A stretch of 38,501 nucleotides of DNA from a virus. The notes under the pieces are model-generated. The model saw nothing but the letters and a program-made list of their open reading frames with translations, ran no database searches and was not told the origin of the DNA. The DNA is taken from positions 1 to 38,501 of the IMG/VR virus record IMGVR_UViG_3300013103_000025; one strand, written 5' to 3'. The position numbers and the translations under genes were made by a program. Below are positions 2,658-33,600 of this stretch, in pieces (the first letter of the stretch is position 1; each line of letters begins with the position of its first letter).

Positions 2658-2668
2658 GTTATATCACC

Positions 2669-3325: not shown

Positions 3326-3329
3326 ATTA

Positions 3330-7594: not shown

Positions 7595-7632
7595 AAAAGA
7601 AGGCGGGGCATAATCAACCCCGCCTTCTTTTT
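7595..7632. terminator. Bidirectional rho-independent terminator
   Basis: AAAAGAAGGCGGGG pairs with CCCCGCCTTCTTTT around a 9-nt loop, with A and T tracts on the two sides. It serves the nuclease on plus and the convergent MerR-like gene on minus. A near copy of this stem lies at 8372-8414. Confidence 0.9.
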
Positions 7633-8329: not shown

Positions 8330-8371
8330 ACTATTTTTCTCCTTTGGTTGATTATTTTATAATTTGTAAAT

Positions 8372-8414
8372 GAAAAGAAGGCGGGGTGAGTATAATCAAC
8401 CCCGCATTCTTTTC
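8372..8414 (-). terminator. Rho-independent terminator, near copy of 7595-7632
   Basis: GAAAAGAAGGCGGGGT pairs with ACCCCGCATTCTTTTC around a loop of about 10 nt. The GGCGGGG stem and the ATAATCAA loop sequence repeat those at 7595. It follows the MerR-like gene at 8414-8983. Gene plus terminator may have been duplicated as one unit. Confidence 0.8.
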
Positions 8415-8983
8415 TACTTCATGGTTATTTTTTTAGCCACCTTTTTACGCCTTATTCCCTTTTTACTGTAATTGTTTTCAAACTCATATTGTTTTTTTGC
8501 GAGGGATCCCAGATCCAAAATTAAAATACTTGCGCTACCGGGTGCAAAATTAAAACCATTGAAAATGATATCACCATTTTCATTTGAGATTTTAAAATAT
8601 TTTTCATCAATTTGTTTATTTGTCATGTTGGTTAAAATTCCCCCAACAATATCTAGATCATTATGGGGCATTTCACACCACAAATTAAAATACCGATTAG
8701 GATCTGTAATTAATGACATTTTAAATAACTCTTTATATTCCATTATTTCTATAATGTTTTTGAATAACTCTAAAATATTTTGCAGCATTGATTTGTTTAA
8801 TCCCATCTGATGACATTCTGACAAAATATAAAATTGAAACAATTCACTACTATCAAATTTATATCCAGACCCTCTACCACAATTTCTCCCAAATCTCAGG
8901 TTAATTACATTTTTTTCTATATAATATTGAATTTGCCTCACTGATAACTCTGTTGCTTTCGATACATCTTGTGTTAAATACAT
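8414..8983 (-). CDS. MerR-like DNA-binding protein, copy 2
   Basis: A 189-residue protein with a clear MerR-like N-terminus: MYLTQDVSKATELSVRQIQY (HTH, with the 'vR.iqYYiekn' segment following) and a wing region containing GRGSGYKFDSSELFQFYIL. The C-terminal domain contains 'WCEMPHND', 'VGGILTNM', 'GFNFAPGSASILILDLGSLA' and 'KKQYEF', parallel to copy 1. It ends in a basic tail (KKGIRRKKVAKK). A class I promoter motif lies 50 nt before the ATG and an AAAGGAG site precedes the start. It is likely a phage regulator; its target is unknown. Confidence 0.78.
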   Translation of the reverse strand: MYLTQDVSKATELSVRQIQYYIEKNVINLRFGRNCGRGSGYKFDSSELFQFYILSECHQMGLNKSMLQNILELFKNIIEIMEYKELFKMSLITDPNRYFNLWCEMPHNDLDIVGGILTNMTNKQIDEKYFKISNENGDIIFNGFNFAPGSASILILDLGSLAKKQYEFENNYSKKGIRRKKVAKKITMK

Positions 8984-9132: not shown

Positions 9133-11163
9133 TTAATAAATAAAGAAATTCAGCTCAATTTTTTCAACAACTCTTGTCGGAGTTAGCGAAACATTAATAT
9201 GAAAAGTTTTGGTTTTCTTTTCATATTCGGATGCACCAACATCAACACTATATGAGTAAAGGCCACGTTTAGCTTTTACTGCCTCAAGAAAATCTACCAC
9301 ATCATTTCGAACTGAATTCCAAGTAATTTCATCATTCAATTCAAAGATATAAAATTTGGCATATTGTTCAAGAGCACGTTTGCAATAAAGAATCAAACGA
9401 ACAATATTAAGATCCTGTAAAGCACTCGGTTTCGCCTGAGTTGTAAGCTGACCCCAAACACTATAACCAACCGCAAATTTAACAATGGGGTTAATCTGTT
9501 TGAGATACAATTGATCCCGTTGACCAAGGCGCGGATTAAAACGAAGATCCATAATTGTATCAATAGACCCACGCTGGAATCCTGCAATAGCATACCACAC
9601 TTCAGCTACATTATCATTTCGCGGAGCTAAGTATGACATATGATAAACCGGAGACACCCAAATATCATTGCCCGTAAAAGAATCATAAATCTTATTGTAA
9701 GATTCATAAAGAGCACAGAAATAATTATTAAAACTGTGATCACTCTCACGTTTAGAAATTGAATGTTGGAATGTTGAGTTATCACCATTATCAAGCAATG
9801 CAACACAATCACGCCGAGTTTGAACTAATGTGCTGATTTGCTGTTTTACAGATGTGGAATAACCACAATCAAATACCATGGTGAAATAAATCTTTTCGGT
9901 GTCCATGATATTATCATCAATGTCACCGCTGTAGCCTGACGCCAATAGACGCTCAGCTTCCGGGTAATCAACATTACCATTTACATCAAGTAATGAACCA
10001 TCACTACCCTTACGAAGCGGAATGGGGTCACTGGTCATAAATGCATCTGAAACATAATCCAATTCTTTACGAATGTAGTATGTAACACTTGCTTCCCAAT
10101 CAAAATGAGATAATTGCTGACCAGGTGTCTCGGTACCAGGATCGCCAAGTTCATGGAGCCAAGTTTGATTCGCACCTGTAAGATTGCGATTATCAAAAAT
10201 ATTTATCATTTGATTATCGGAACCAGATGAAGCACCCAACCAACCCCATACACGATTACCACGCTGGTCAATAGCAAGAATGCTATATACAGCTTCGCCA
10301 AGTTCGGTAGAATTTTGCCAATCACTAAAATCTTGTTTAGCATCTTCAATTGTTGCAGGAATCAAATCAAAGTTATTACTACCAACTGGATTTTCAACTA
10401 CGGTTGTAACAGCAGACCAACCTTGGTTTTGGTCATATGAACGAACTAGCAATTCATAGCCACTTGAATATTCACCATTTGCAAGTTCCATTACGCCTCG
10501 CAATACAGCAGAATATTTTCCAAGAATGTCAACAATGAAAATAGAATCGCCGGAATTATCTCGGGCAGTTGGGTCAAATGATACAACATACGATTCGATA
10601 ATTACTTCATCACCATCTTTCTGCAACTCATAAATATCAAGGTTATATACGCCTTCAAACATCGGGTTTGCATGTTTGGTAATACGGATAGATAAACCAT
10701 TATAATAGTCACCACGACCAATTGGGTGTAGAATACAAAGCGGATAAATATCGCTTGTAGGATCCCGATCCAGTGAAGATACAATTTCAGTATGCGTATT
10801 AAGCGTTTCTACCCAAGTCAATTGAATATCAGATGTAGCATCGCCAGCAGCATGAACAACATCAATTCGAAGATTTGAATAAGCAGAATCATCGGGCATA
10901 CAACGCATATAATAAAGGGAACCAGATTCCCCCAAAAAGTTATATGCACAATACTGACCCTGGCCATAATTTTTACCATATGTGGTAATGTCAGGTTCGC
11001 CCCATTCTCCAATCAATTCATTTCGGCCACTTAGAAAAAGAACTTCGTTATCACGACCCTTTTTTGTAAGTGCACAAATAAAACCAGTGGTAGAGGGAAC
11101 CGCTTGTACATACGTTGATAAATCAATTATCTTTGTATATACACCCGGAGAGATGTTAGACAT
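9133..11163 (-). CDS. Tail sheath protein, gp18-like
   Basis: A 676-residue protein, close to T4 gp18 (659 aa). It opens with SNISPGVYTKIIDLSTYVQ and 'VPSTTGFICALTKKGRDNEV', then GRNELIGEWGEPDI and YGQGQYCAYNFLGESGSLYY, the standard phage sheath N-terminus. The C-terminal quarter has 'ISKRESDHS..NYFCALYESY', 'GSIDTIMDLRFNPRLGQRDQ' and 'DEITWNSVRNDVVDFLEAVK', typical of the contractile core domain. The sheath contracts to drive the tube into the host. The GGAGGACATATT leader is strong, fitting high expression. It is a one-gene unit with its own strong terminator, separated from the tube gene by the regulatory island. Confidence 0.93.
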   Translation of the reverse strand: MSNISPGVYTKIIDLSTYVQAVPSTTGFICALTKKGRDNEVLFLSGRNELIGEWGEPDITTYGKNYGQGQYCAYNFLGESGSLYYMRCMPDDSAYSNLRIDVVHAAGDATSDIQLTWVETLNTHTEIVSSLDRDPTSDIYPLCILHPIGRGDYYNGLSIRITKHANPMFEGVYNLDIYELQKDGDEVIIESYVVSFDPTARDNSGDSIFIVDILGKYSAVLRGVMELANGEYSSGYELLVRSYDQNQGWSAVTTVVENPVGSNNFDLIPATIEDAKQDFSDWQNSTELGEAVYSILAIDQRGNRVWGWLGASSGSDNQMINIFDNRNLTGANQTWLHELGDPGTETPGQQLSHFDWEASVTYYIRKELDYVSDAFMTSDPIPLRKGSDGSLLDVNGNVDYPEAERLLASGYSGDIDDNIMDTEKIYFTMVFDCGYSTSVKQQISTLVQTRRDCVALLDNGDNSTFQHSISKRESDHSFNNYFCALYESYNKIYDSFTGNDIWVSPVYHMSYLAPRNDNVAEVWYAIAGFQRGSIDTIMDLRFNPRLGQRDQLYLKQINPIVKFAVGYSVWGQLTTQAKPSALQDLNIVRLILYCKRALEQYAKFYIFELNDEITWNSVRNDVVDFLEAVKAKRGLYSYSVDVGASEYEKKTKTFHINVSLTPTRVVEKIELNFFIY

Positions 11164-11957: not shown

Positions 11958-13811
11958 TCACGCCACCTGCAATTCAACATTACTTCTATAAGGAGCAGAA
12001 TAAGTTTCATCTGAATAAAAATCAAATACAACATCGGGTGTAATATTATCATCAATTATTATAAAACAAACATCGCTTGCATATTGGTCATCGAAATAAC
12101 CACCTTCATCAAATACAACAAATCCACCTGACTGAACGGCGTATGATGTTGTACCAACCGTATCACTTTCGATTAATGCAGATGGTATGATTTCACCATG
12201 CTTTCGCATAGCCAATTTATCAACAAAGTGATCTGTAATTGTTGTTTGGAATGAATCAGGTGGATCACAGGCTGCACCAATATCATAATATGAGCCACAA
12301 TCATATGTATCACGGGAATATGATAAAGCATTCCCAGTTGGACAATTTAGACTCTGGTCATTACAACACGGTCGGCTATTACAAGTATCCCAATCTACAA
12401 TTTGTTCAACAATGATATCTGTGCAATAATCTTTTAAACGAATTGATTCTTCAAGGCGATCATTAAAAATCAAACCAAAATCTGTTAATAATAATCTTGC
12501 ATGATAAGGTTTGAAGAAATTAATTATCCCGCCAAGATCCCGCAACAATTCTTCCTGACCTAAAATCATATACCCTAAGTTAGGCACATATATTGAAAAA
12601 TAGGTTTTTACCCATGATGAAAATTCTTCTGACAATTGCCCGAGAATTGTTGCACCTGGTGTAATTGATAATAAACCATCTAATCTATCTTTCGACTCTG
12701 GAAAAATGCTTGATAATATATCTTCAGCACTCCCAGAACCGGGAAAAATATGCTCAGAAAAATCAACCGTAAAATCATTATAATATTGGCGTATATTTTC
12801 TTCCCGCTCATCTCGGGAATGTTGCTCACCATGAAGAGATTCATAATCTGTAGTAATAGCTGTATAACTATTTGGGTTTTTATTGTATTTATAAATTAGA
12901 GTTTGATCCGGTGTTCCGTATTCTTCATCTGGGAAAGTTTTGTCAAATACATACACCATCGAAGCATACAACTCCAATAATGAAACATATTTATTCAACA
13001 CAACTGAAAATAGATCAGTTGCTGGATATGTATGATTGGTTAATATGTAATCATATTGGTCTGCCATATGTCGATTTATATGAGCAAATAACAAACTCAA
13101 TTCTGACATATCCAAATATATTCGCAATGAATAATATGGACTTTTGGCAGGAAGATGATTATTTAAAGCAAGTTGTTGATTTACCATCTTGGATTCAGAG
13201 GTCATCCAATGTGGATCCCAATCAGTTCCTTCTTCAAATGTTAATACTGTTGGAAGGGTATCAACATTATACCCAACGCTTTTGGCTAATATGCTTTCAA
13301 AATAAATTCTTGCTTCAGGTGAAACATTATCACCATAATTCATTTTAACCATATATTCAAAAATCTGAATACTTGGTATGCCATGATATCTTAAAGCGTG
13401 TGCAACAGACCCGGGTGAGCCTTTTATTTTATACAAATTCACCAGATCTAAAAAGAAACTTACTTTATTATAATTAATGCGATTATTTACATATGTAAGT
13501 TTATTTGAATAAGGATAACCATAACTACGAAATAGTTCATCCAAATGAGAATTGGGCAATACATATAGATCGCTTATATCTTTTTGAACTGTAGTTAAAG
13601 TTCTGTGACTTGCAAACCAATCAATTAAAAATGCACGAAGTCTTTTATAATCTTCAGAAGCAAAAGCTACCTGGTCAAGAGTTTTTTCAAAAAATACTTC
13701 AAGCGTCCCTTTATCAGATTGGGCTATTGCATATAGAGGTTCATATAATTCAACATTCGTATCACCAGATAGATGTTTGAATATTGCATCGAAATCTTCT
13801 TTAGTCCACAT
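11958..13811 (-). CDS. Baseplate-associated protein with gpI-like segment
   Basis: A 617-residue protein. Residues about 85-150 (LPNSHLDELFRSYGYPY ... 'NRINYNKVSFFLDLVNLYKIKGSPGSV' ... ALRYHGI) resemble the P2 gpI-type tail protein segment 'l..La..~g......r.....li.n...ly~.KGT..al...l~..Gi'. The C-terminal part holds a Cys-rich cluster (CNSRPCC ... LNCPTG ... YDCGSY ... ACDPPD, about residues 490-535) that could bind metal or be disulphide-bonded. The gene overlaps the preceding one by 11 nt, so the two are translationally coupled. It ends TGA immediately followed by TAA. The baseplate/fibre role is inference from context and the gpI-like stretch. Confidence 0.75.
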   Translation of the reverse strand: MWTKEDFDAIFKHLSGDTNVELYEPLYAIAQSDKGTLEVFFEKTLDQVAFASEDYKRLRAFLIDWFASHRTLTTVQKDISDLYVLPNSHLDELFRSYGYPYSNKLTYVNNRINYNKVSFFLDLVNLYKIKGSPGSVAHALRYHGIPSIQIFEYMVKMNYGDNVSPEARIYFESILAKSVGYNVDTLPTVLTFEEGTDWDPHWMTSESKMVNQQLALNNHLPAKSPYYSLRIYLDMSELSLLFAHINRHMADQYDYILTNHTYPATDLFSVVLNKYVSLLELYASMVYVFDKTFPDEEYGTPDQTLIYKYNKNPNSYTAITTDYESLHGEQHSRDEREENIRQYYNDFTVDFSEHIFPGSGSAEDILSSIFPESKDRLDGLLSITPGATILGQLSEEFSSWVKTYFSIYVPNLGYMILGQEELLRDLGGIINFFKPYHARLLLTDFGLIFNDRLEESIRLKDYCTDIIVEQIVDWDTCNSRPCCNDQSLNCPTGNALSYSRDTYDCGSYYDIGAACDPPDSFQTTITDHFVDKLAMRKHGEIIPSALIESDTVGTTSYAVQSGGFVVFDEGGYFDDQYASDVCFIIIDDNITPDVVFDFYSDETYSAPYRSNVELQVA

Positions 13812-14607
13812 AATCAGGCCCGCTTTCAGAAATTAATTTAAATATTTGATTTATAACAAATACCTCAACTAAACAATCCAATGGTCGATTTGCAATTGGC
13901 TCATCAGGGTTGTAATATTGGTGGTCACCTGTTTTCAATGTATAAATGTAAATGCTAATAAGACGCGAAAATACGGTCAACAATGATAGATTAACACTTA
14001 GTAAATATGAGCTACCAGGCAATTCAATAAGGGTAGGGGCTTCGTTATTTTCGTGTATATAAATGTTAATTGAATCTGGATCAATTCGATAATGAGCCAA
14101 AGCATCTAAAACAATTACATCACACCAACAAAGTTGAAATACATTTAGACCAACTTCATCTGGTTCTTCCTGAATAACTGTATAAATGGATGTCGAATCC
14201 GTCGGTATCAAATCCCCAGTTGTCGTGTCCACATATAAATAACAGCTTGTGCTATCAGGATCGCAACTTGTGCTATCACCATTTGGTAAATTTGAAAATT
14301 GTGGCTGACGATATGATATTCTATTAGGCACGTAGTATTGAGAATAATGATAAATAGATAATCTATCTAACATTGATGTTGGCCACGATCTCATATCAGT
14401 TTTATTTTCATAGCCAATTGTATAATCCAATCCATGTATCCATTCATCTGAAAATAACAATTGCAGAAAACTTTGATTAAACATCATGTGTTCGGGATAA
14501 ATATGCCCAGGTTGAAAAGTTACCCCCTTATCTAACATATTCGTTTTTCCAAATTCAGAAAAATAGAATTGTAAATCGGACATAAATTTTGCACTTTGTG
14601 GTAACAT
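13801..14607 (-). CDS. Virion structural protein, unknown family
   Basis: A 268-residue protein, first gene of a three-gene structural unit. It has no TM, signal peptide or motif I recognise. It contains 'FQPGHIYPEHMMFNQSFLQLL', a Ser/Thr/Asp/Cys-rich stretch with DSTSCDPDSTSC (about residues 111-122, a short internal repeat of D-S-T-S-C), and a beta-rich C-terminus with LLSVNLSLLTVFSRLISIYI. The 3' end overlaps the gpI-like gene by 11 nt. A class II motif lies 40 nt before the ATG; the ribosome site is a weak AAGGGAAA. Partner of the downstream baseplate protein is a reasonable guess. Confidence 0.75.
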   Translation of the reverse strand: MLPQSAKFMSDLQFYFSEFGKTNMLDKGVTFQPGHIYPEHMMFNQSFLQLLFSDEWIHGLDYTIGYENKTDMRSWPTSMLDRLSIYHYSQYYVPNRISYRQPQFSNLPNGDSTSCDPDSTSCYLYVDTTTGDLIPTDSTSIYTVIQEEPDEVGLNVFQLCWCDVIVLDALAHYRIDPDSINIYIHENNEAPTLIELPGSSYLLSVNLSLLTVFSRLISIYIYTLKTGDHQYYNPDEPIANRPLDCLVEVFVINQIFKLISESGPDYVD

Positions 14608-14959: not shown

Positions 14960-15322
14960 ATGAAACTAACAAAAAAAGATATGGCAGAAATGTCAGGAAT
15001 GAATTTAAGAAAAATTCAATATTATACTGAGGCCATAAGTGTATTTAAAATTTTTAACTCTGGCAATGGTACAGGAAATCGGAGGCAATACACGATCCAA
15101 GATGCATATTTATTCAGGGTTATAAAATATTTAACTAAATGGAATATTAGCAGCACAGCAATTGATAAGGTTATAACAAGCATTGTTCAAGGTGATTTAT
15201 ATTTTGAAGATCTTATTATTACCGAAGATTTTCATGCACATAAATATTTCGCATCAGCTAATTATTCTCAATTTATGGTATTGCATATTGAAAAATTTCA
15301 CAAATATTTAATTCCTGATTAA
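14960..15322 (+). CDS. MerR-like DNA-binding protein, copy 3 (short)
   Basis: A 120-residue protein with a MerR-type N-terminus: MKLTKKDMAEMSGMNLRKIQ and 'YYTEA', the same '.lt..d......s.RkIqYY.e' layout as the protein at 8414, then 'GNRRQYTIQDAYLFRVIKYL' as the wing region. The C-terminal effector domain of copies 1 and 2 is absent, and 'IDKVITSIVQGDLYFEDLII' follows instead. The ribosome site is CGGAGA. Within this window three proteins share the fold, so the phage seems to run several related regulators. Confidence 0.75.
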   Translation: MKLTKKDMAEMSGMNLRKIQYYTEAISVFKIFNSGNGTGNRRQYTIQDAYLFRVIKYLTKWNISSTAIDKVITSIVQGDLYFEDLIITEDFHAHKYFASANYSQFMVLHIEKFHKYLIPD

Positions 15323-17844: not shown

Positions 17845-17857
17845 ATATTTATGTTCT
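17845..17857 (-). promoter_or_regulatory. Class II promoter-like motif
   Basis: The minus strand reads AGAACATAAATAT, overlapping the TAA of the endolysin gene, 11 nt before the holin ATG. Spacing is shorter than at other sites, so it may be fortuitous. Confidence 0.35.
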
Positions 17858-18460
17858 ATATATCCGCCTGTATCTCCGATTAGATCTGCTCATCCAACCT
17901 CTAATAAATACCCGCTGTTTTGGTCGCTTTAAACAAAGATTGATATAATGAATTGTATGATATGAATAAAGCATATCTTCAATTCTCTTATCATTGCCTT
18001 GATAACTCAAAGCATCATTTAATGCTTTTACTGTATGTTTGCCGCAAATACCATCCACAACAATATCACCATTTAAAACAAATAAACACTCCTGTAAATA
18101 TTCGCCAGCTTTTCGTGTTCCTAAAGAAACTGCCATATCAAATAATTTAATTGAGATTTCATCAATATCAATTTTATCACAATTCATCACTTCCCAATAA
18201 TGAATGCGATAATACGATTTAACATTTTCAGTCAATCCGACTGCATGTGATAAATTTTTTGGGAAGTCATTTTCTTTTCTTTTTTCATCTATTATATTCC
18301 AGCCATCCCACCGAGGATTGTAATACCGAGATATCCCCATGTAAGTTTCTTTGCCCAAATCATCTGCATGGTTCGAATACCCACCTTCATTGCTAACGGT
18401 AAAATCAAATGCTAAATTAAAGGGGTCTTCAATATACATATTCAAATCCTCATCATTCAA
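17849..18460 (-). CDS. Endolysin, GH108 muramidase with PG-binding C-terminus
   Basis: A 203-residue protein, the usual size of GH108 endolysins (170-210). The catalytic region is near residues 20-45: 'FTVSNEGGYSNHADDLGKETYMGISR', with the conserved E-G-G-Y glutamate and the D-x-G-x-T-x-x-G-I motif. 'LFDMAVSLGTRKAGEYLQ' follows as the 'fd~av~~G...A...lQ' segment, then 'DGICGKHTVKALND', the PG_binding_3-type region. It should cut peptidoglycan glycan strands. There is no signal peptide, so release needs a holin, which the next gene could encode. The C-terminus ends in Arg/Tyr-rich RSNRRYRRIYRT, unusual and possibly membrane- or wall-binding. Confidence 0.85.
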   Translation of the reverse strand: MNDEDLNMYIEDPFNLAFDFTVSNEGGYSNHADDLGKETYMGISRYYNPRWDGWNIIDEKRKENDFPKNLSHAVGLTENVKSYYRIHYWEVMNCDKIDIDEISIKLFDMAVSLGTRKAGEYLQECLFVLNGDIVVDGICGKHTVKALNDALSYQGNDKRIEDMLYSYHTIHYINLCLKRPKQRVFIRGWMSRSNRRYRRIYRT

Positions 18461-18898: not shown

Positions 18899-19222
18899 TT
18901 AATTTATAAATACATTATCGCTTCCGGATATAATTGTACCATAACCTCCGCAACATATTGTTCTATCCCCAACTCTTACAGATCCATGCCCATTTACAAA
19001 AGTATCATTTGAGCCAACTAAAGTTTTCCATATTTTTGGACCACAACAATATGAATGTCTCCCACCATCAATTTGATCTGCCCGAGCTGCACCCCAATTA
19101 TTCATAAATGTATCATCAGCAACCCATGAAAAAGGCCCTCGTACTTCATGGGGGCAATGTTTACATCCACATCTATCGCTTGGGTTGTAGTGCATATCAG
19201 ACCATCTTGCGGCACCTGGCAT
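18899..19222 (-). CDS. PAAR-type tail spike tip protein
   Basis: A 107-residue protein, the size of single PAAR proteins. It starts MPGAARWSDMHYNP and carries repeats typical of the PAAR cone: 'CCGPKIWKTLVGSNDTFVNG', 'GSVRVGDRTICCGGYGTI' and a final ISGSDNVFIN. Several Cys/His residues (CGCKHC, HSYCC, ICC) could hold the metal at the tip. PAAR proteins sharpen the spike of contractile tails, as gp5.4 does in T4. The ATG is 1 nt after the stop of the preceding gene, so the tip is probably made together with the large virion protein just upstream. Confidence 0.85.
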   Translation of the reverse strand: MPGAARWSDMHYNPSDRCGCKHCPHEVRGPFSWVADDTFMNNWGAARADQIDGGRHSYCCGPKIWKTLVGSNDTFVNGHGSVRVGDRTICCGGYGTIISGSDNVFIN

Positions 19223-19223
19223 T

Positions 19224-20573
19224 TTAATTATCCTTTATATAACGAATTAAAAATCTTATTGTGCTAACTTTTCTGGGCTTATGAAAATTCAATCTAGTTG
19301 GATTTATATAATCAACATTTCCCGGATGAATATATCTATTGAATGAAAGACACGCTTTTTTATACGAACAATTACGACATGCATTAACATCTGAATTTAC
19401 CTCAGTTATAATCCCAATTGTATTTCCATTTTGACTTACTGTATCTCCTACCACTGGAGTGCCTTCAATTGAAGAATCGTGTAAATCGCCATAATACTCG
19501 ATATTTGTAGCACTTGCAAAAATTTGATTTGGGTTTGGGATAATGATATAGTCTGGTTCAGCCGGCGGTGGGTCCAATGGAGGATCTGGTTCAAATACAA
19601 TTTTTATTGTATCTCTCACATTCAATTTTTTAATTGTAAATTGTTCCATTAAATCTTGAATCATAAAATCTTCAAGCATACCACCCTTTTCAATATTAAT
19701 TAATTCATCTACAATTGGTTCATGATTAGGATTAATATATTCCCCGTCATCATTTGTTTCTCTAATATCTTCAATTGTTCGATCGGGTGGCATATTATAT
19801 TGTTCAACAACCATGTACCCACTACCAACTTCCACCACTTCTCCAAATACATAATTTCTAACAACACTGTCTGAAGCTGTATCATTTTCATAAGGACGAA
19901 CTGTCCAAGATAAAAATTCATTTGGGTCATATGGATTGGCGTTATCTGTAACAACCCATTCATTTACATTTTCTGGAATCGGAGTTGTTGCAGGTGCAAA
20001 AATTGGTTTATCAACAAGTGCGCTAGATACATATGGTGTTTTGCAAGTAACCAATAATGGCATTTCTACAATTTCGCCTTCAACATCCATTTCATAAGAA
20101 GAACGAATTGTATCCATTTCTTTATAAGAATGATTTGGTTGCCATTCTTCTTGAGAGAAGTAATCAAAAGTCTTTTGGGCTAAATAATCTCCAACCTGAA
20201 TATCAGCACCTGTATTTGTATAATAAATCTTTATGCGTGAAACATTTAATGAATATAATTTAGATGTCGCCCCGCTCGAATATTCAACTTCTTCAAATAA
20301 ATTGTATTTAATATGATTTAAATCATCATACGGGAGATTATCTCTTTCCCCATATGAAATTTTTAAAACATTTGTATTTTGAATTAATGAAAAATGTGCA
20401 AAAAACCCAAAACAAATTGGTTCTCGGGAAGTTGAGTTATGCTCATTTGTTGGAGATGGGTCGCCGTAAGAAGTGCCGGGTTTCCAGTTCGAATAAGGTA
20501 CACCGGAAGGGCAATCTACAACTCCAATTATATACAAAAATTTACCAGGTATTAAATTATGGGGTATGTCCAC
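19224..20573 (-). CDS. C-terminal extension A of the MGLQE virion protein (after UGA)
   Basis: A 449-residue open frame beginning at a GTG (20571-20573) that lacks a ribosome site. It lies exactly in frame with the gene at 20589-21401, separated only by TGA and five codons. Read through, the two give about 725 residues. The frame is beta-rich, with a Pro-rich linker (DPPLDPPPAEPD, about residues 333-344), a 'VVGDTVSQNGNTIGIITEV' beta segment, and a Cys cluster CRNCSYKKAC (about residues 403-412) that could bind metal. It precedes the PAAR tip gene by 1 nt. No family recognised. I think it is made as a readthrough product; translation from the GTG is the alternative. Confidence 0.7.
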   Translation of the reverse strand: MDIPHNLIPGKFLYIIGVVDCPSGVPYSNWKPGTSYGDPSPTNEHNSTSREPICFGFFAHFSLIQNTNVLKISYGERDNLPYDDLNHIKYNLFEEVEYSSGATSKLYSLNVSRIKIYYTNTGADIQVGDYLAQKTFDYFSQEEWQPNHSYKEMDTIRSSYEMDVEGEIVEMPLLVTCKTPYVSSALVDKPIFAPATTPIPENVNEWVVTDNANPYDPNEFLSWTVRPYENDTASDSVVRNYVFGEVVEVGSGYMVVEQYNMPPDRTIEDIRETNDDGEYINPNHEPIVDELINIEKGGMLEDFMIQDLMEQFTIKKLNVRDTIKIVFEPDPPLDPPPAEPDYIIIPNPNQIFASATNIEYYGDLHDSSIEGTPVVGDTVSQNGNTIGIITEVNSDVNACRNCSYKKACLSFNRYIHPGNVDYINPTRLNFHKPRKVSTIRFLIRYIKDN

Positions 20574-20588
20574 ACCCGAAATACTTCG

Positions 20589-20591
20589 TCA
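20589..20591 (-). other. Candidate programmed UGA readthrough site A
   Basis: The mRNA reads GGT-UGA-CGA. UGA followed by C is a known leaky context. The frame stays open for 450 codons afterwards. A hairpin, GGGTGT-GGAC-ATACCC, lies about 12 nt downstream and could stimulate readthrough or serve as a SECIS-like element. Confidence 0.5.
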
Positions 20592-21401
20592 ACCAGAGCC
20601 TACATTTTTATAAACTATAATTCTATCTGTTTCGGTCGATGGGGTATTTATTGACAATCTTATAAAATTAACCCAATATTCTTTTCTTAATGTATGTATT
20701 AAATCTGGAAAAAATTCATGTATTAAATTCCAATGTATTCTATGATAAGATGCATCTTTTAATTCATCGTAAAAATTTACTCGTTGTGGGGGCACATAAT
20801 TTTTATCTAATAATACATCAAAATCCATTAAATCACTTTTGTATAATTGTAATTGAAAAGGTGAAACCATTTTTTGTTTTGGGCTATAATACAATGGAGA
20901 AATTGAATAAGCTAAAATGTATAACGATTCTAAATTACTGCGAATATTTCCATACGAATTTAAAATCGAGACCCATATTTGAATATTTTCAATGGGGATA
21001 TCTTCATCTTCATCATAACTTATTCGTATGGCATTGGGATCTTTTAAAATATTTTGTTCATTTAAAAATTCATATACATGAACACATGCACCATGATTAG
21101 TTGTTACTGCAGTTGGTGTTTTAAAACCATCGCTAGTTCCTGAGTTATCGGAGGTTTCAAAATTTTTTGAAATTCCAGCTTGCGTTACCTGCCGCTCCGT
21201 TGTAAATGGTGTAATTGCCCTTTCAATTAAATCCCAATTATCCCAATTCCAATCATTTGGGTGTTCTTCATCGAATCCGATAATATATTCTCCTAATACA
21301 TGTTGGAGAATAAATTGAGATCTTTCAATGTATTCTTTCATTTTATATAGGCCCATTAAAAACAAAGTCGAATGAGCACATGGAACTTCTTGCAGACCCA
21401 T
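20589..21401 (-). CDS. Virion protein A, MGLQE family (N-terminal part)
   Basis: A 270-residue protein starting MGLQEVPCAHSTLFLMGLYK. The start MGLQE-x-PC and the following 'lymm.l' helix are shared with the gene at 21671, so the two are paralogues. The middle has 'NWDLIERAITPFTTERQVTQ', which corresponds to 'WKNITDIFKAFNTQKLVSTG' in the paralogue, and later 'SPFQLQLYKSD' parallels 'SPGQLLFYGSK'. It is rich in aromatic residues, with no TM or signal. The ribosome site is AAAGGATAAATAA. It ends at a UGA-C with a long in-frame continuation. Probably a baseplate or fibre-linked protein (inference from neighbours). Confidence 0.75.
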   Translation of the reverse strand: MGLQEVPCAHSTLFLMGLYKMKEYIERSQFILQHVLGEYIIGFDEEHPNDWNWDNWDLIERAITPFTTERQVTQAGISKNFETSDNSGTSDGFKTPTAVTTNHGACVHVYEFLNEQNILKDPNAIRISYDEDEDIPIENIQIWVSILNSYGNIRSNLESLYILAYSISPLYYSPKQKMVSPFQLQLYKSDLMDFDVLLDKNYVPPQRVNFYDELKDASYHRIHWNLIHEFFPDLIHTLRKEYWVNFIRLSINTPSTETDRIIVYKNVGSG

Positions 21402-21418
21402 TTATTTATCCTTTTTTA

Positions 21419-21643
21419 TTAAATTCGTCGTAATTTATTATAATACATTTTATATGCTGTTTGAAACCATGGCCCAGAACTTGCAGAAGGAAAACGAGCT
21501 ACATAATCCTCAGTTCCATTTCCGACTGGAAAATCGTCTGGTATACAACAACAATATTGAAATTCCTGAATTGATTCTTCTACATCATTGAGACAAATAT
21601 GCAAAGATGCAGTATCATATTTACCACCGGAATATAGGCTCAC
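21419..21643 (-). CDS. C-terminal extension B of the MGLQE virion protein (after UGA)
   Basis: A 74-residue open frame from a GTG (21641-21643), in frame with the gene at 21671-23002 and 27 nt after its TGA. The GTG has only AGGG touching it as a possible ribosome site. Read from the UGA, the junction is HGRPTGPQGVSLYSGGKYD, a Gly/Pro turn like a linker, then an acidic segment with a triple Cys (YCCCIPDD) and an aromatic end (YKMYYNKLRRI). The junction DNA (GGACGTCC, GGGCCC) is far more GC-rich than its neighbours. A fusion product of about 527 residues is the likeliest output. Confidence 0.65.
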   Translation of the reverse strand: MSLYSGGKYDTASLHICLNDVEESIQEFQYCCCIPDDFPVGNGTEDYVARFPSASSGPWFQTAYKMYYNKLRRI

Positions 21644-21670
21644 ACCCTGCGGGCCCGTTGGACGTCCGTG

Positions 21671-21673
21671 TCA
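21671..21673 (-). other. Candidate programmed UGA readthrough site B
   Basis: The mRNA reads ACG-UGA-CAC, a UGA-C context like site A, followed by a short GC-rich island (21644-21670) and 82 more open codons. The octamer ACGTGACA also occurs at the UGA of the small gene at 15528. Confidence 0.5.
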
Positions 21674-23002
21674 CGTAAATCGAGGTTTGAAGAATTCTTC
21701 GCTTTTACTTTCACACCAATCATAGAATTTTTCTGGATCACCGAAATCAACTATTGATTCCCAATGCGAAAATTGATATGGTGTTGGCGAACAATTCGGA
21801 ACAATTACCTCTAAACTATTCTGGCTACTAATTGCAGGTCTAGCCATATTATAATACATTACAGACTTTAATTGTTCTGTAGTAAAATCCAGTTGTGTTG
21901 CACTTCCACCACCCCTAGCTCCCAATTTTCCACCACCCCATGATTCTGGATTATCTGGTTGTGCTGGCATCGTGCATTTAATGCGTGTATTAAATGCTCC
22001 AACTTCACGGCCGTCACCAATTAATATTGATTTGTCTTTATATGTAAATGTTCCTTCTTGTATTAAATCTAATTCGAAGATAATTTCTGGAACATTAATA
22101 TACCATATATCATTTATATCTTCAGTTATAATTACATTAATATCCGAAAATAAAACATCAATAATATCCCAAGGCATTTGGGCGAATATATGGGGACCAA
22201 CTCTAGAATAACTCATAGACCCAACAAAACCTTCAATGGAACTTGGAAATGATTCATTTCCATATGACCATATATCTACCAAATGGTCAGGGACCCATTC
22301 ACCTTCTGAACCTTTGTCTGGGTTAAATTCATCATCATGTTCTTCCACTTGACGTATTTTAGAATCATCAGGCCTTGATATAACAGTTGACTGACCAAAA
22401 TCATCAGTTAATATTTCATGTTTAAATAAAAGTGAACCATGAGTATATTTACTACCATAAAATAATAATTGACCTGGGGATTTTGTTTCAGGCCTATTGT
22501 TATCAATATTGGATTTAAAATTCATATAAATTGATAATAATATCATACGAACTGAATCTTCTAATTCAAATATTGTTTCAAATGTTGTAATCAACATTGA
22601 CCATCTTCTCATCGGCCCTTGATTATCAATCATATCTGCATTAGGGTCAACAAATAATAAATTCATCATATCGTCATTTAAAAATAGATTTTTCTTTTTT
22701 GCAACTTTCCACATAATCATATAATTGATAGTACTTTTTCCAATCATAAATTGTGTAGGTGAAGAATCAGATGTTCTATAATCCTTGGATGGGGTCGCCC
22801 CAGTTGAAACCAATTTTTGGGTATTAAAAGCCTTGAATATATCAGTTATATTCTTCCACCCTTCTTTTGTTGAGCCGTCAATAAAATATTTACAAAACGT
22901 ATCCGCAATAATTTTATTACGTCTATTTAATTCTCCGAATACATTTAATAAAGACATCATATATAACCCAGCAGGACGACAGGGCATTTCTTGTAAACCC
23001 AT
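21671..23002 (-). CDS. Virion protein B, MGLQE family (N-terminal part)
   Basis: A 443-residue protein starting MGLQEMPCRPAGLYMMSLLN, paralogous at the N-terminus to the gene at 20589. It is longer by an insert that includes an acidic loop (EEHDDEFNPDKGSEGEW), followed by 'GFVGSMSYSRVGPHIF' and a Gly-rich run (WGGGKLGARGGG, about residues 361-372). No TM or signal. Duplicated, large, aromatic-rich proteins between the fibre genes and the PAAR tip suggest baseplate or fibre attachment parts, but I do not recognise the family. It ends in UGA-C with an in-frame continuation. The ATG overlaps the preceding unit by few bases with GAGGAATAAATAAA before it. Confidence 0.78.
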   Translation of the reverse strand: MGLQEMPCRPAGLYMMSLLNVFGELNRRNKIIADTFCKYFIDGSTKEGWKNITDIFKAFNTQKLVSTGATPSKDYRTSDSSPTQFMIGKSTINYMIMWKVAKKKNLFLNDDMMNLLFVDPNADMIDNQGPMRRWSMLITTFETIFELEDSVRMILLSIYMNFKSNIDNNRPETKSPGQLLFYGSKYTHGSLLFKHEILTDDFGQSTVISRPDDSKIRQVEEHDDEFNPDKGSEGEWVPDHLVDIWSYGNESFPSSIEGFVGSMSYSRVGPHIFAQMPWDIIDVLFSDINVIITEDINDIWYINVPEIIFELDLIQEGTFTYKDKSILIGDGREVGAFNTRIKCTMPAQPDNPESWGGGKLGARGGGSATQLDFTTEQLKSVMYYNMARPAISSQNSLEVIVPNCSPTPYQFSHWESIVDFGDPEKFYDWCESKSEEFFKPRFT

Positions 23003-24431: not shown

Positions 24432-25652
24432 TTAAAGAAGTATATTAGTAGTTGCTTGTAAATTACCTGTGCCTGTTGCTAATGTTGTACCAACTGAGCC
24501 TTGTGGATAGTAATTACTAAATACAGATGCTCCTGTAAATGGAAGTTCAAATGTATATTTAGGTGCTATTCCAGACGGATGTATTGCGCCGTTGAAACAA
24601 GTCAATGTGGAATTTAAATAAACTTTAAAAATCGACTTGTATTGGCTGTAATAATTTGCTATGGCATATACACAGCTATTCCACCCAATGTCAAAACACC
24701 TACCATCAACATTTGAATTCGCCCAAAAATTAATACTATCAGCAAGAATAAATGCAGGTGTATTACGAATTCTAAAACATGCCGAATCTTGCTCAACATT
24801 ATGTTGGTGTATATTAAAACACATTATTGTGATTTGTGATACATTACAATTATTTATATAAATCCCAGAACCATATGAGCTAGATGTATTTGTAAAATTT
24901 AAATCAACATCATAATTAGTATGGGCACCACCACCGACATAAGAATTATCACCCCATAAAGTTATATCACCAGGCCCATAAAATCTATCCAAATTGATAG
25001 AAGATGTTAAATTATATATGCCATCTTCAAATTTTATTAAATACCCACCCCACCCATATGTATTTGGAATATATCGTGGTAAGCTATCAATTACGTTTTG
25101 AATATAAGTGATGTTTGAATTTGCTGGGATGGTAATTTGTTTATGATATATTTTATCACCATTAAATAACAAATCCAAATTTTGTTTATCAACCCCAGTC
25201 ATAAATCCAGATGCGCCTTCTGAAACTACATCCGCATGTCCATGTGTAGTCGGGGAAAAATAAGAAGCTGGATGCCCTCCTAGAGTATCTGCATCACCAC
25301 CATTTTGATTTAAATCATCTAATTTCATTTTATCTTGGGCTGACATGAAGCCATGCTTTGCCCCAGTTGTATCAAAGCGAACAGCTAAATCATGAACATG
25401 TGAGGCTTGGGCGAAATAGGAAGATGGGTGTCCTTGTAAAGTATCAGCATCAACACTACCGCCGCCGGGTGTCTCTAAATTGGTAATTCGAACACCCAGC
25501 GAATCGGTTTCATCTTTTAAATATACTGAACGATTGGTTAATTGAGATATAGCTAGGTTTGCTCGACCTGCATTACCACCTACTATAACTTCACCGGTTT
25601 CAACCTGATTAACAACAGGTGCCCAATTGCTTACTTCTGTAATATTACTCAT
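24432..25652 (-). CDS. Tail fibre protein with beta-helix domain
   Basis: A 406-residue protein. The N-terminal third carries two fibre repeats: 'VDADTLQGHPSSYFAQASHV' with 'HD', and 'GDADTLGGHPASYFSPTTHG' with 'HAD', each followed by a 'GFMSAQDKMKLDDL' / 'GFMTGVDKQNLDLL' unit. This is the repeat of phage side-tail fibres. The C-terminal two thirds look like a right-handed beta-helix with Asn/Ser/Gly-rich rungs ('DITLWGDNSYVGGG', 'YGSGIYINNCNVSQITIMCF'), typical of receptor-binding or polysaccharide-degrading fibres. No clear catalytic motif was seen. It most likely mediates host recognition. Confidence 0.85.
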   Translation of the reverse strand: MSNITEVSNWAPVVNQVETGEVIVGGNAGRANLAISQLTNRSVYLKDETDSLGVRITNLETPGGGSVDADTLQGHPSSYFAQASHVHDLAVRFDTTGAKHGFMSAQDKMKLDDLNQNGGDADTLGGHPASYFSPTTHGHADVVSEGASGFMTGVDKQNLDLLFNGDKIYHKQITIPANSNITYIQNVIDSLPRYIPNTYGWGGYLIKFEDGIYNLTSSINLDRFYGPGDITLWGDNSYVGGGAHTNYDVDLNFTNTSSSYGSGIYINNCNVSQITIMCFNIHQHNVEQDSACFRIRNTPAFILADSINFWANSNVDGRCFDIGWNSCVYAIANYYSQYKSIFKVYLNSTLTCFNGAIHPSGIAPKYTFELPFTGASVFSNYYPQGSVGTTLATGTGNLQATTNILL

Positions 25653-25655
25653 TTT

Positions 25656-26750
25656 TTATTTCCTTAAATTATCCATCAATGAACCAGAAGAATTGTCTTT
25701 AAATTTACTTGACATAAATTTGATTTGTTCTTCCATTGAAGATGATGAATCAACATTAGGTTTTAACATATTATTAATTGTTGAATATACAGCAGGCCAT
25801 ATAATTTTATCACTACCGCCAGTTGCACTTTCAATCATTCTTTGTTGAGATGTTGATTTTGTCATTCCATGAGATATCATCAAATTAATTACGTCCGATT
25901 CATTTATTTCCCCATTATCAATATCGTTTGAAACATGATCATTTAAAATCATTTGGGTTTGTTTATCTTCGATTGATTCTTTTATTGTTTTTTGTTTATT
26001 AACAACAACCTTCTTCGATTCATTTTTTGATTCTTTTATAGCCTCCAATAATTTATCACGAACTCTAGTTCTAAATTTCAAAGCTACAATATCATCATTC
26101 TTATTTGTTTCAGACAGGGGTTTACCATTTCGAACCGCATCAATTTCTTGCGCCATAATCTGTTTTTTGTCAGTCTTATTTAAAGTCCGACATACGGGGG
26201 ATCTATCAAGAGACGGATCCGCAATTTGCCGGTATGTTGGAAAGTCTAATGGTGACGATGATACAGCTTGTTCACCATCAATTGCTAAACCATTATTATC
26301 ATTTGCTTCCATGGGTTTTGTTTTTGAAGATTGGTCGATATACCCTTCGCTTCCTTTGCTATCACTATCAGGAATATTGAATTGGTCAAACAAAGCTTTA
26401 TCTTCATCCAATAATGATTTTTTATGGCGCTGTGGTTTTTCTCTCACGGATTCAACATATACGGACGTAGAAGCTTCATAGCTCGAACTCCATGGATTCC
26501 AATAGTATCCCTCACCAAATATTAACAAATTACAATCGACCTTGGAACCGACCGGTATGCTGTCTTTTAGAATGGATTGGATTGCAGGGATTTCGGTTAG
26601 CATTTTTGCCTCACGGATTTCAACAGGGAATGTCAAAACAACCTCATTAAATGTAACCTGAAATTGGCCGGTTAATTTTGTATGATCAATTCCCCCAATG
26701 GAAACGTCGAACTGTAAGGTTTTTGGTTTTGATACATCTAAGCTTTCCAT
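25656..26750 (-). CDS. Probable prohead core / virion structural protein
   Basis: A 364-residue protein. The first about 115 residues form a compact beta domain ('LQFDVSIGGIDHTKLTGQFQ', 'VLTFPVEI', 'IPAIQSILKDSI', 'GEGYYWNPWSSSYE'). The remainder is low-complexity, charged and helical (KESKNESKKVVVNKQKTIKE), ending near 'MEEQIKFMSSKFKDNSSGSL'. A small folded domain plus a charged coiled tail suits a scaffold or head-core protein; I recall comparable N-termini in uncharacterised T4-like virion proteins, but I am not sure. It overlaps nothing and is 4 nt before the fibre gene. Confidence 0.6.
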   Translation of the reverse strand: MESLDVSKPKTLQFDVSIGGIDHTKLTGQFQVTFNEVVLTFPVEIREAKMLTEIPAIQSILKDSIPVGSKVDCNLLIFGEGYYWNPWSSSYEASTSVYVESVREKPQRHKKSLLDEDKALFDQFNIPDSDSKGSEGYIDQSSKTKPMEANDNNGLAIDGEQAVSSSPLDFPTYRQIADPSLDRSPVCRTLNKTDKKQIMAQEIDAVRNGKPLSETNKNDDIVALKFRTRVRDKLLEAIKESKNESKKVVVNKQKTIKESIEDKQTQMILNDHVSNDIDNGEINESDVINLMISHGMTKSTSQQRMIESATGGSDKIIWPAVYSTINNMLKPNVDSSSSMEEQIKFMSSKFKDNSSGSLMDNLRK

Positions 26751-26985: not shown

Positions 26986-27930
26986 TTATTTACTCTTTAA
27001 CTTTGTCAGAGATTCTTCGGCAGTTTTCAATTTTGTTTTATACTTCAAAATTTTATCACCTAATTTCTCTTTGCATTTAGAGGGATTTTTTGTGTGGTCA
27101 CATAAAGGTTTCCCTTTTTCATATGCTTCAATTTGTTTCTTTAATGCATCTATCTTTACCTGAACATAACATTGCTTTCTTTCAGCACCCTTTTTACCTA
27201 CGCATTTTTTCGAAGCTTTTGAAAAATATCTCTGATAAACTTTAAAGCCAATATAAGCTGCAGCAGCTACAACGATTGATATACCAACAATATCTTTGAT
27301 ACCTTCTCGATTATCGAATACGTCTCTGGTAAATTTTTCCCAACCTTGGGATGCATCTGATTTAAAATCTTTCCATGCAAATTTCATTTTATCACCAACT
27401 GAGCCAACTTTAGCAGCATTTTTTTCGTCTAGGCCCTTTTTATATGCGGATTCCATTTTTTCATTTACTTGCCGCATATGTTCTTGTGCTTTTTTAATTT
27501 CTTCCTCTGATCCATATCTTTTTGTCTCACCATATTTTTTAGTTGCCGCATTCCATGCATCTCTTAACTCCATTGAGATGGAAGCTTCTTTCAAAATTTC
27601 ACGGGAATCAATGCCTTCTAATGACAGACTATTTATCTCATTCATGAAATCAACAGCTTTATAATTATCATCAAAAGCAAATTGATCTGAGTTTTCAATT
27701 ATAAGTTGTTTCACATCATTCAATATCTGGGTTTCAACAAAAGCATTATCATCAACATCTGAAATTTTACCATACATTGCAAATGACAATACATTTGCAT
27801 CAGACGCCGTCTCTTTTATATATTTGATTATTTTTTCATCTCCGTTTTTTTCTTGGACATCTTCAATAAGAGTTTCTCGGAGTATGGTCATAAATAAAGC
27901 ACTGTTTATCTGATTTTCTTTTAACATCAT
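26986..27930 (-). CDS. Cys-rich single-TM protein, family member B
   Basis: A 314-residue protein starting MMLKENQINSALFMTILRET; a GTG two codons upstream overlaps the AAGGTGACA ribosome site. It keeps the family plan: N-terminal domain with 'ASDANVLSFAM', here 'DANV' where others have 'DGDV/NGDI', then a long charged helical linker (EEIKKAQEHMRQVNEKMESA), one TM helix (about 218-240, IVGISIVVAAAAYIGFKVYQ) and a Lys-rich tail with four Cys ('KKCVGKKGAERKQC', 'PLCDHTKNPSKCKEKLGDKI'). It lacks the Gly/Ala linker of members A and C. The tail spacing C-x7-C is preserved. It lies near the head of the long virion operon. Function unknown. Confidence 0.85.
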   Translation of the reverse strand: MMLKENQINSALFMTILRETLIEDVQEKNGDEKIIKYIKETASDANVLSFAMYGKISDVDDNAFVETQILNDVKQLIIENSDQFAFDDNYKAVDFMNEINSLSLEGIDSREILKEASISMELRDAWNAATKKYGETKRYGSEEEIKKAQEHMRQVNEKMESAYKKGLDEKNAAKVGSVGDKMKFAWKDFKSDASQGWEKFTRDVFDNREGIKDIVGISIVVAAAAYIGFKVYQRYFSKASKKCVGKKGAERKQCYVQVKIDALKKQIEAYEKGKPLCDHTKNPSKCKEKLGDKILKYKTKLKTAEESLTKLKSK

Positions 27931-27942
27931 TGTCACCTTTTG

Positions 27943-30503: not shown

Positions 30504-31508
30504 TTATTTCTTTTGTAATTTTGCAATTTTTGCATCAATCTTTTTATTACATTCGGTTCTATTTTTTGTTTTAGCACAAAGGCTTTTTGATTTACGCAAA
30601 GCATCAATTCGAGCCTTCTGAGCTGCTTCTGCTTGATTCGCTTTACCAGCATTTCTTTTCTTTGCATATTTATATGCGGCATATGAAAGCGTAGCAATCA
30701 ATGCAACACCAACAGCAACTGAAATACCACCTTTGTGTTGTTCAAAGAAATCGCTCATCCCAGTTCTAGCTTCACCGACTTTACCAGTGCTCATCCAGTT
30801 CGTTATCTTCGTCCACAAACCTGCTGTATCGGCTGGATTGGTTGGCTTGCCGCCATTTCCGGCTGGGCCTGCTTCACTTGCTCCGGCGGCATCAGCTATT
30901 TCTTGGCGATCTGCTTTATCTTGAATATCATCGCCCACGCCACCCATATCACTAGAGCTTTTTTTACCAGATTCTTCCATTCGGTTGGCCATAAATTTTT
31001 CACGCTTTTGTGCATCTGCTGTTACCGCTGCGGCACTTGCACTTGGTTTACTTTTATAAGGCGCACTTGCATCAGACGAATTTTTATACGGACCAGTTAT
31101 CTTAGCCTGATGCGTGGATGTATCATTTCCAGCAGCTTTCATTCGAGCCAACATTGCCCGACGCGACTTATTATAATCATCCATCTCACTTTCAAGCAAA
31201 CAATTTCCCAAACCATGGATTTCGGAAAGGCTGAAAGCACATTCGGAAATTAATTTTTTGTCTTCAATAATATCTGAATTTTCAATTAATACACCTTGTA
31301 TATATCCAACCATTGCTTCTGTAAACAATTCATGATCAATATTTTCAGGGATGAATTCTTCAAACAAAGCCATTGACAATACATCACCATCAGTTGTATT
31401 TTCAACAAAATGTTTTAATTGTTCAGGTGTGCCGCCATTTTCTTTTAATTTCATAGCTAGATCTTGACGAAGAAATCCCATAAATACATTGGGTATTGAT
31501 AAATCCAT
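30504..31508 (-). CDS. Cys-rich single-TM protein, family member C
   Basis: A 334-residue protein. The N-terminal domain ('NVFMGFLRQDLAMKLKENGG', 'TTDGDVLSMAL', 'IPENIDHELF', 'LISECAFSLSEIH') is close to member A. The linker contains SSSDMGGVGDDI and IADAAGASEAG, also shared with A, but with a longer Ser/Ala-rich part. One TM helix (about 255-275, GISVAVGVALIATLSYAAYK) is followed by a Lys/Ala-rich tail ending 'SLCAKTKNRTECNKKIDAKI', keeping one Cys pair (C-x7-C). The upstream Cys pair of A and B is lost. It follows a C92-type hydrolase gene, and that two-gene arrangement is repeated just upstream. The class II motif lies 32 nt before its ATG. Confidence 0.85.
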   Translation of the reverse strand: MDLSIPNVFMGFLRQDLAMKLKENGGTPEQLKHFVENTTDGDVLSMALFEEFIPENIDHELFTEAMVGYIQGVLIENSDIIEDKKLISECAFSLSEIHGLGNCLLESEMDDYNKSRRAMLARMKAAGNDTSTHQAKITGPYKNSSDASAPYKSKPSASAAAVTADAQKREKFMANRMEESGKKSSSDMGGVGDDIQDKADRQEIADAAGASEAGPAGNGGKPTNPADTAGLWTKITNWMSTGKVGEARTGMSDFFEQHKGGISVAVGVALIATLSYAAYKYAKKRNAGKANQAEAAQKARIDALRKSKSLCAKTKNRTECNKKIDAKIAKLQKK

Positions 31509-31573: not shown

Positions 31574-32149
31574 TTAATGCCTATAATCTCTCAAGGCTTC
31601 TACCTTTTTAGAATTGAATAATCCATCAGGTGTTAATGAAAATCCACCACCTGGATCTTTTGCAAAATCATCTTCAAAAATACAATCATATACAATATCA
31701 ATTAATTCAGTGCAATATACTTTGCCATTGAAATCTTTGAAATCATAATCATAGGGGATATTTAATTTGACCATACGCTTGGCTTTGGATAATGCTATTT
31801 CCACCATTTCATGTGTACGCCCTTTTACCCGTAACAACGCGGCGCTATCACATCTAAAGAAATCTAAAACATCTTCTTGCATTACCCCATGCGTCGTTGC
31901 TTGAGCAACCATATTATTACCGATGTATAATCCGGCATGTGCCCAAAACCCAGGTATAGCCATCCCACTTAAATACCCATCGTGGCTTCTGACAAATATA
32001 TCACCGGGTTCCATATCGTTAAATATATTTCGTATTTCTCTCCCCTTCAATTTATGGAATTGGGGATTGTATGTTATAAAAGGGGGTTGTTTCGCAACAT
32101 GTATTTTACCCCCGAAATCCACCAACCATTTCGGCATTCGAAAACCCAT
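31574..32149 (-). CDS. Permuted papain-fold hydrolase, YiiX/C92-like, copy 1
   Basis: A 191-residue protein with the YiiX/NlpC-P60-permuted layout. 'MEPGDIFVRSHDGYLSG' is the 'pGDi~~~r' strand; 'IPGFWAHAGLYIGNNMVAQA' carries the catalytic His (FWAHAGL); 'KVYCTELIDIVYD' carries the catalytic Cys (YCTEL), preceded by the 'IPYDYDFKD' segment. Such enzymes cut peptidoglycan peptides, lipids or acyl chains; the substrate here is unknown. There is no signal peptide. Sequence and length match the copy at 32922. It alternates with the Cys-rich TM genes on both sides, so the two types probably work together. Confidence 0.82.
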   Translation of the reverse strand: MGFRMPKWLVDFGGKIHVAKQPPFITYNPQFHKLKGREIRNIFNDMEPGDIFVRSHDGYLSGMAIPGFWAHAGLYIGNNMVAQATTHGVMQEDVLDFFRCDSAALLRVKGRTHEMVEIALSKAKRMVKLNIPYDYDFKDFNGKVYCTELIDIVYDCIFEDDFAKDPGGGFSLTPDGLFNSKKVEALRDYRH

Positions 32150-32170: not shown

Positions 32171-32902
32171 TTAAATTTTTGATTTTATTTCTGCAATTTT
32201 TTCATCAATTCTTTTTTTACATTCTGCTGGGGTTTTGCTTTTTGAACATAATGCTTTAGCTTTATTCAATTCTTGAATTTGAACACGCCGAGCCAACTCT
32301 TCAACATTTTCTTTTGATTGTTGTTTTTGTTTATATTTTTTATATGCTACAAATGCCAATGTTGAAATTAATGCAACCAACAAACCAGATTTTATTTGAC
32401 CGCTGTGTTTTGTTAAAAAATTGCTTACTGCTGAAACTTGCCCAGACTTAGCCATAGATCTAGCTTTTTCTGATGCCGCCTTCATTACTATTGGGACAGG
32501 GGATCCGTTTGAATTGTGGTTATTCACATCACCCATATCAAAACCTTGACCAGGCATATTTTTAAAATCCAGTTCATTTATAAATATAGAATTATTATCA
32601 CCCTCGATAAAATCAAGCGAAGCAATTGTTTCATTTACAATGTCTTGATCATCATTCAAGGAATCCGAACTCTCTCTAATCAATTCTTTAATTGTTTCAA
32701 CAAAAGCTTCATTGACAAAATGTTTATCTACATTATCTGGTATAAATGATTTAGTTAATATCAAACTTAATATATCGCCATTTGAAGTTTCTCTAAGAAA
32801 CCGTTTCAAATCATTATTGGATAGACCTTTTGATTTTAATTCAATTGCCAACTCTTCTCGTAAATTATTGATAAATAATTTAGCAATATTTGATTTTTTC
32901 AT
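32171..32902 (-). CDS. Cys-rich single-TM protein, family member D
   Basis: A 243-residue protein, the shortest member. The N-terminal domain has 'KLFINNLREELAIELKSKGL', 'TSNGDILSLIL' and 'IPDNVDKHFVNEAFVETIKE', clearly alignable with members A and C. The linker is short ('MGDVNNHNSNGSPVPIV'). The TM helix is at about 171-189 (GLLVALISTLAFVAYKKYKQ), and the tail ends 'ALCSKSKTPAECKKRIDEKI' with the C-x7-C motif. It lies 21 nt upstream of C92-like copy 1 and 19 nt after copy 2, giving the order C92-TM-C92-TM. Confidence 0.85.
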   Translation of the reverse strand: MKKSNIAKLFINNLREELAIELKSKGLSNNDLKRFLRETSNGDILSLILTKSFIPDNVDKHFVNEAFVETIKELIRESSDSLNDDQDIVNETIASLDFIEGDNNSIFINELDFKNMPGQGFDMGDVNNHNSNGSPVPIVMKAASEKARSMAKSGQVSAVSNFLTKHSGQIKSGLLVALISTLAFVAYKKYKQKQQSKENVEELARRVQIQELNKAKALCSKSKTPAECKKRIDEKIAEIKSKI

Positions 32903-32921: not shown

Positions 32922-33491
32922 TTAATGCCTAAATTCGATTAAGGTGCTTACCTCATCACTATTTTGAATACCGTCAGGGATTAATACAGAACCACCGCCG
33001 GCATCTTTTGCATAATCATCTTTGAACAATCCTTCATACATCATGTCAACAAACTCCGTGCAATATATAGCACCATTATCTGCCTTAAATTCGTAATCAT
33101 AGGGTATATTCTTTGCCGTTGTAACCATAACCCTTTTAAGCAGAGAATCGATGTCAACAGGCGTTTTAGGCCGCAAAACAGCAGCACCATCGCACCGAAA
33201 GAAATCAAATTGATTTTCTGTTCCAGTCCCCTTTCCAATTGCATGTCCAATTAAATTATCATTTATTGAAATTGCAGCATGAGTCCAATACCCAGGAATT
33301 GCTAATGTATTTACATACCCACCTTGACGGCTAAGTAATATATCACCTGGCTCCATTACGTCTATAATTTGTTGGATTTCAAAGCCTTTCAATTTATGAA
33401 ATTGAGGGTTGTATGAAATAAACATTGGAGTTTTTGAAAGGTATATTTTACCGGTAAAATCTAATAACCACTTAGGTACACGAATTGACAT
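32922..33491 (-). CDS. Permuted papain-fold hydrolase, YiiX/C92-like, copy 2
   Basis: A 189-residue protein, paralogous along its full length to the gene at 31574. Start chosen at 33491 (MSIRVPKWLLDFTGKI), which aligns with MGFRMPKWLVDFGGKI of copy 1 and follows CAGGAGATTTATATT; an upstream in-frame ATG at 33563 would add 24 residues absent in copy 1. The catalytic His is in 'IPGYWTHAAISI' and the Cys in 'GAIYCTEFVDMMYE'. The shared 'FFRCD.AA.LR' segment lies between them. As in copy 1, no signal peptide. A class II motif lies 42 nt before the ATG, so this gene heads the C92/TM operon. Confidence 0.82.
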   Translation of the reverse strand: MSIRVPKWLLDFTGKIYLSKTPMFISYNPQFHKLKGFEIQQIIDVMEPGDILLSRQGGYVNTLAIPGYWTHAAISINDNLIGHAIGKGTGTENQFDFFRCDGAAVLRPKTPVDIDSLLKRVMVTTAKNIPYDYEFKADNGAIYCTEFVDMMYEGLFKDDYAKDAGGGSVLIPDGIQNSDEVSTLIEFRH

Positions 33492-33533
33492 AATATAAAT
33501 CTCCTGATAAGATCGTATTTTTGGGTTAAAGCT

Positions 33534-33550
33534 ATACAATAATATGTTCT
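33534..33550 (-). promoter_or_regulatory. Class II promoter-like motif
   Basis: The minus strand reads AGAACATATTATTGTAT, 42 nt before the ATG of C92-like copy 2. Confidence 0.5.
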
Positions 33551-33600
33551 TATTAAAGGCCATTATTAAATGCCAAATGATCTTAATATGTGTTCATATC

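Follow-up and report, generated by a model that had tools for sequence, protein, structure and literature searches.

Two adjacent paralogous genes, here called A and B, of an uncultured tailed phage each run into an in-frame UGA followed by C, beyond which the same frame stays open and coding and lacks a normal start of its own. Readthrough of the UGA, which would give a short and a long form of each putative tail-region protein, is the best-supported mechanism and the simplest account of the arrangement, and we give it about an even chance of being correct. The window, by which we mean the whole stretch of DNA analysed, is a fragment of 38,501 bases (33% G+C) from virus record IMGVR_UViG_3300013103_000025. 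The features of the two genes are as follows.

21671-23002, minus strand: gene A, first part; 443 codons, ATG with SD (GAGGAAUAAAU), ending ACG TGA C
21671-21673, minus strand: the TGA that interrupts the frame of A; next base C
21419-21670, minus strand: continuation of gene A; 83 codons in the same frame, ending in TAA
20589-21401, minus strand: gene B, first part; 270 codons, ATG with SD (AAGGAUAAA), ending GGT TGA C
20589-20591, minus strand: the TGA that interrupts the frame of B; next base C
19224-20588, minus strand: continuation of gene B; 454 codons in the same frame, ending in TAA
21656-21676, minus strand: ACG TGA ... ACG, the pre-stop codon of A repeated in frame 18 nt downstream
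20574-20594, minus strand: GGT TGA ... GGT, the pre-stop codon of B repeated in frame 18 nt downstream
21636-21671, minus strand: G+C-rich stretch (about 74%) directly after the A stop

The original prediction held that both genes begin with MGLQE-x-PC and end in TGA followed by C, and both points were verified in the sequence, the full stop contexts being ACG TGA CAC in A and GGT TGA CGA in B. The open same-frame continuations that it described are also present, with lengths of 83 and 454 codons in place of the 82 and 455 first given. That A and B are adjacent paralogues is borne out by alignment of their N-termini, for which BLASTP gives 28 identical residues over 90 aa (31%, E 8e-9), the similarity being confined to the N-terminal domain. 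When the two continuations were compared with each other, homology between them was unsupported. Gene A has a weak internal match, equalled in 3 of 300 shuffles and one among several comparisons made. Structure prediction for the two read-through proteins gave no reliable model (mean pLDDT 31 and 30). By G+C content, the stretch after the A stop ranks in the top two for its length in the window.

The window carries a contractile-tail module, parts of which, together with other genes of the region, are listed here.

165-4723: baseplate wedge and hub proteins
5894-6613: tube-like protein
9133-11163: tail sheath (PHROG and Pfam matches)
17849-18460: endolysin (Glyco_hydro_108 family match)
18899-19222: PAAR-motif protein (family match)
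24432-25652: protein with a tail-fibre-like N-terminus

Genes A and B lie between the PAAR gene and the tail-fibre-like gene, and it is solely on this map position that we take them to be probable tail-region or virion proteins; in family searches, including PHROG and Pfam, neither A nor B matches any family. Paralogues also occur elsewhere in the window. Four members of one family, with conserved ends, lie at 4890-5852, 26986-27936, 30504-31508 and 32171-32902 (24-27% identity to the first), and the family is repeated in relatives too. An adjoining pair at 31574-32149 and 32922-33563 is 51% identical and resembles, by eye, papain-like NlpC/P60-type enzymes; a family search with one member gave no convincing match. 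Three short proteins that look by eye like MerR-type regulators are encoded within the tail gene cluster (7631-8983 and 14960-15322).

Codon statistics, trained on the window's other genes, favour the shared frame both before and after both stops. The continuation of A scores 0.12 bits/codon in frame 0 (74 codons) and that of B 0.25 bits/codon (449 codons), the other frames being clearly negative in each case; the gaps between stop and GTG (9 codons in A, 5 in B) are below the length that these statistics can judge. As potential starts, the A continuation offers a GTG at 21641-21643 (SD energy -2.5 kcal/mol), a TTG (+0.6) and an ATG only at codon 75, and the B continuation a GTG at 20571-20573 (-0.6 kcal/mol), a TTG (-2.8) and, as its first ATG, codon 158. 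The window's other genes, by comparison, start with ATG, usually with an SD, and have a median SD energy of -6.1 kcal/mol. The claim that the downstream open reading frames begin at GTG codons with no ribosome site is borne out to the extent that all the GTG and TTG candidates are weak, the GTG of B being without an SD. We also scanned 235 kb, made up of the window and its relatives with partly overlapping loci, for pairs of open reading frames in the same frame. Nearly all of the 31 pairs found have an ATG, mostly with an SD, a few codons on; A and B alone combine a clearly coding continuation with the lack of a start. The anatomy of the two genes, their coding continuations, the missing starts and the rarity of the arrangement are established, and a long coding continuation with no normal start makes passage of ribosomes through the stop, to give a long form, probable in this phage.

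The identity of the stop is a further point to note. TGA is rare as a stop in the window (5 of 45 genes), and the three TGA stops outside A and B are followed by T and then by another stop in the same frame 0, 6 and 15 codons later. UGA followed by C is a weak, leaky stop context. If nonsense codons arose at random by single-base change, A or B would acquire TGA then C with a probability of 0.028, and both genes with a probability of 0.0008, figures that were computed post hoc and constitute support, not proof. Tryptophan insertion, which the original prediction had offered as one variant, is contradicted as a genome-wide code by the presence of 135 TGG codons against 2 internal TGA codons, TGA also serving to terminate genes, and genome-wide recoding of TGA is rejected on this ground.

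If readthrough does take place, a fraction of ribosomes would insert an amino acid at the leaky UGA-C and go on to the C-terminal 83 (A) or 454 (B) residues, termination at the UGA yielding the short form of each protein. The inserted residue would most likely be Trp or Cys, brought in by a near-cognate tRNA. Alternatively, the decoder could be a suppressor tRNA whose gene would lie beyond the window; none with a UCA anticodon was found in the window, itself a fragment, or in the relative sequence scanned. In Escherichia coli, near-cognate Trp and Cys tRNAs read UGA and the nucleotide that follows it has an influence, readthrough in bacteria being rarer than frameshifting (PMC5373646). Compared with dinucleotide shuffles, the RNA following the stops has no added stability (z +0.7 and +1.3), so that readthrough would rest on the weak UGA-C together with a near-cognate tRNA, or on a suppressor tRNA. 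We infer the passage of ribosomes through the UGA, the identity of the inserted residue and the presence of both forms in the virion.

Relatives of the phage were sought through a conserved peptide, FFKPYHARL(L), and a DNA pattern encoding it retrieved ten further contigs sharing the tail module, besides a 5.4-kb contig, L002 (IMGVR_UViG_3300033146_003191), the closest relative. Sheath identity to the window is 78% in L002 and 59-65% in the contigs aligned across the sheath. In the flanking sequence of the relatives, the slot bounded by the counterparts of 13801-14607 and 25656-26750 contains different genes, and the read-through proteins A and B gave no match to the whole records of the relatives; A and B are therefore accessory genes. 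Wider searches of viral contigs and of phage and plasmid records, which started from A and B themselves, from their N-terminal motif and from neighbouring genes, returned no A or B homologue, and matches of the N-terminal motif in two contigs (L003 and L023) were rejected as chance. In genome contigs the scan was limited to the tail protein encoded at 11958-13811, of which it found no relative. Readthrough keeps the support of the frame, the coding continuations, the lack of a start, the rare stop in a weak context and the occurrence in both members of a paralogous pair, and it stays inferential because the collections searched yielded no homologue to show whether the stop is kept or replaced by a sense codon.

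The main rival is that A and B are normally uninterrupted genes carrying two nonsense mutations, for instance from a Trp or Arg codon, or two contig errors, in a variant or in early decay; we regard this as a rather unlikely but serious possibility. Loss of accessory genes may be tolerated, given that the relatives fill the slot with other genes, and the searches that returned no homologue give no sign that the stops are conserved. The related contigs are also not free of damage. The sheath gene of L002 has an in-frame TAA at 5146-5148, at a position that is Tyr in the window and with an open frame to either side, and in another contig (L014:5325-5356) the gene corresponding to the 617-aa tail protein of the window is divided between two frames. 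This lone nonsense codon and this frameshift indicate that isolated disruptions occur in such contigs. They are, however, the only two disruptions in some 35,500 aligned residues of the relatives, among which paired disruptions in adjoining genes are absent, whereas mutation or error would need two independent events in adjacent paralogues, both of which happened to create TGA-C. Neither gene has a frameshift or a further stop, coding statistics are retained in both halves, and the window's conserved genes are intact when aligned to relatives, which argues against a general decay of the sequence. A less probable reading, and to us an unlikely one, is that the genes are split, the second halves being started separately at the GTG codons by termination-reinitiation or by leaderless initiation. 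The GTG codons lie close to the stops, 27 nt past that of A and 15 nt past that of B, each inside GGGTGTG, and translational coupling is common in phage operons. Both second halves would nevertheless break the ATG rule of the window and have SD energies far from its median, and promoter-like sites in the region are no more frequent than expected by chance. The shared frame in both pairs would moreover be a needless coincidence, of about 1/9 before the stop-free gaps are counted.

Two other ways of passing the stops were considered, both of them far less probable. In-frame bypassing, in which the peptidyl-tRNA would let go of the ACG of A or the GGT of B, pass over the UGA and pair again at the second copy of that codon, 18 nt further on, strikes us as very improbable. 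The residues between the identical codons are HGRP in A and RSIS in B. A repeated codon of this kind is what a stop-hop would leave as its signature. For two random sites, an offset in common within 2-20 codons has a probability of ∼0.02, and for these particular codons the value is 0.003, again as post hoc figures for a pattern that was spotted after the fact and may be chance. In-frame bypassing functions in synthetic E. coli constructs, although a 2016 review knew of no natural in-frame stop-hop (PMC5009743). The shuffle test revealed no stem-loop above chance at either site, whereas bypassing in T4 gene 60 requires several stimulators. Selenocysteine, inserted at both UGA codons, was another variant put forward in the original prediction, and we consider it the least probable of all. 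In the fold and SECIS search of the RNA after the UGAs, 18-28 nt past each UGA there is a hairpin that satisfies the bacterial SECIS rule loosely, with G at the start of the loop, but its stability lies within that of the shuffles. Among random TGA sites, 2% are followed by a hairpin as good as that of A and 9% by one as good as that of B, base composition accounts for the hairpins (z positive or near zero), and an Rfam search of the region gave no match of note. Neither the window nor the scanned sequence of relatives yielded a tRNA-Sec, and the contexts FT-U-HGRPTG and GSG-U-RSISG are without a nearby Cys and so form no redox motif. The selenocysteine variant is thus left with no positive support.

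Readthrough of UGA-C, the reading that we prefer, can be set beside several known systems. In-frame readthrough was first discovered in phage Q-beta (PMC8310308), whose coat and A1 proteins share with A and B an in-frame UGA, a long open continuation and short and long forms of a virion-associated protein, both forms being predictions for A and B. Q-beta, however, is a small RNA phage in which the event has been demonstrated experimentally, whereas the present case concerns tandem paralogues of a dsDNA tailed phage and is drawn from sequence alone. Phages with reassigned stops, such as the crAss-like phages of code 15, likewise have in-frame stops within late or structural genes, but with its 2 internal TGA codons against 135 TGG, and no suppressor tRNA found, the window gives no indication of a code change. 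Bypassing in T4 gene 60 resembles A and B in that the stop comes right after a codon that recurs downstream. There, however, the gap is 50 nt and out of frame, with a stem-loop, an SD and the nascent peptide as stimulators, whereas the distance in A and B is 18 nt and in frame, and no structure was detected. In E. coli nudL and pheL a near-cognate tRNA also reads UGA with no SECIS element, but readthrough in these genes has been ascribed to weak release factor 2 and not to selection for the extended product.

The matched codons around the two stops supply a specific discriminator between readthrough and hopping. If readthrough is real, gene callers wrongly split genes of this kind, and what would be new is a known mechanism at work in a tailed DNA phage, in two paralogous tail-region genes that lie in tandem. 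A tailed dsDNA phage would then set the ratio of short to long forms of two tandem tail-region proteins by means of a leaky UGA, a form of virion-protein variation already well known from small RNA phages.
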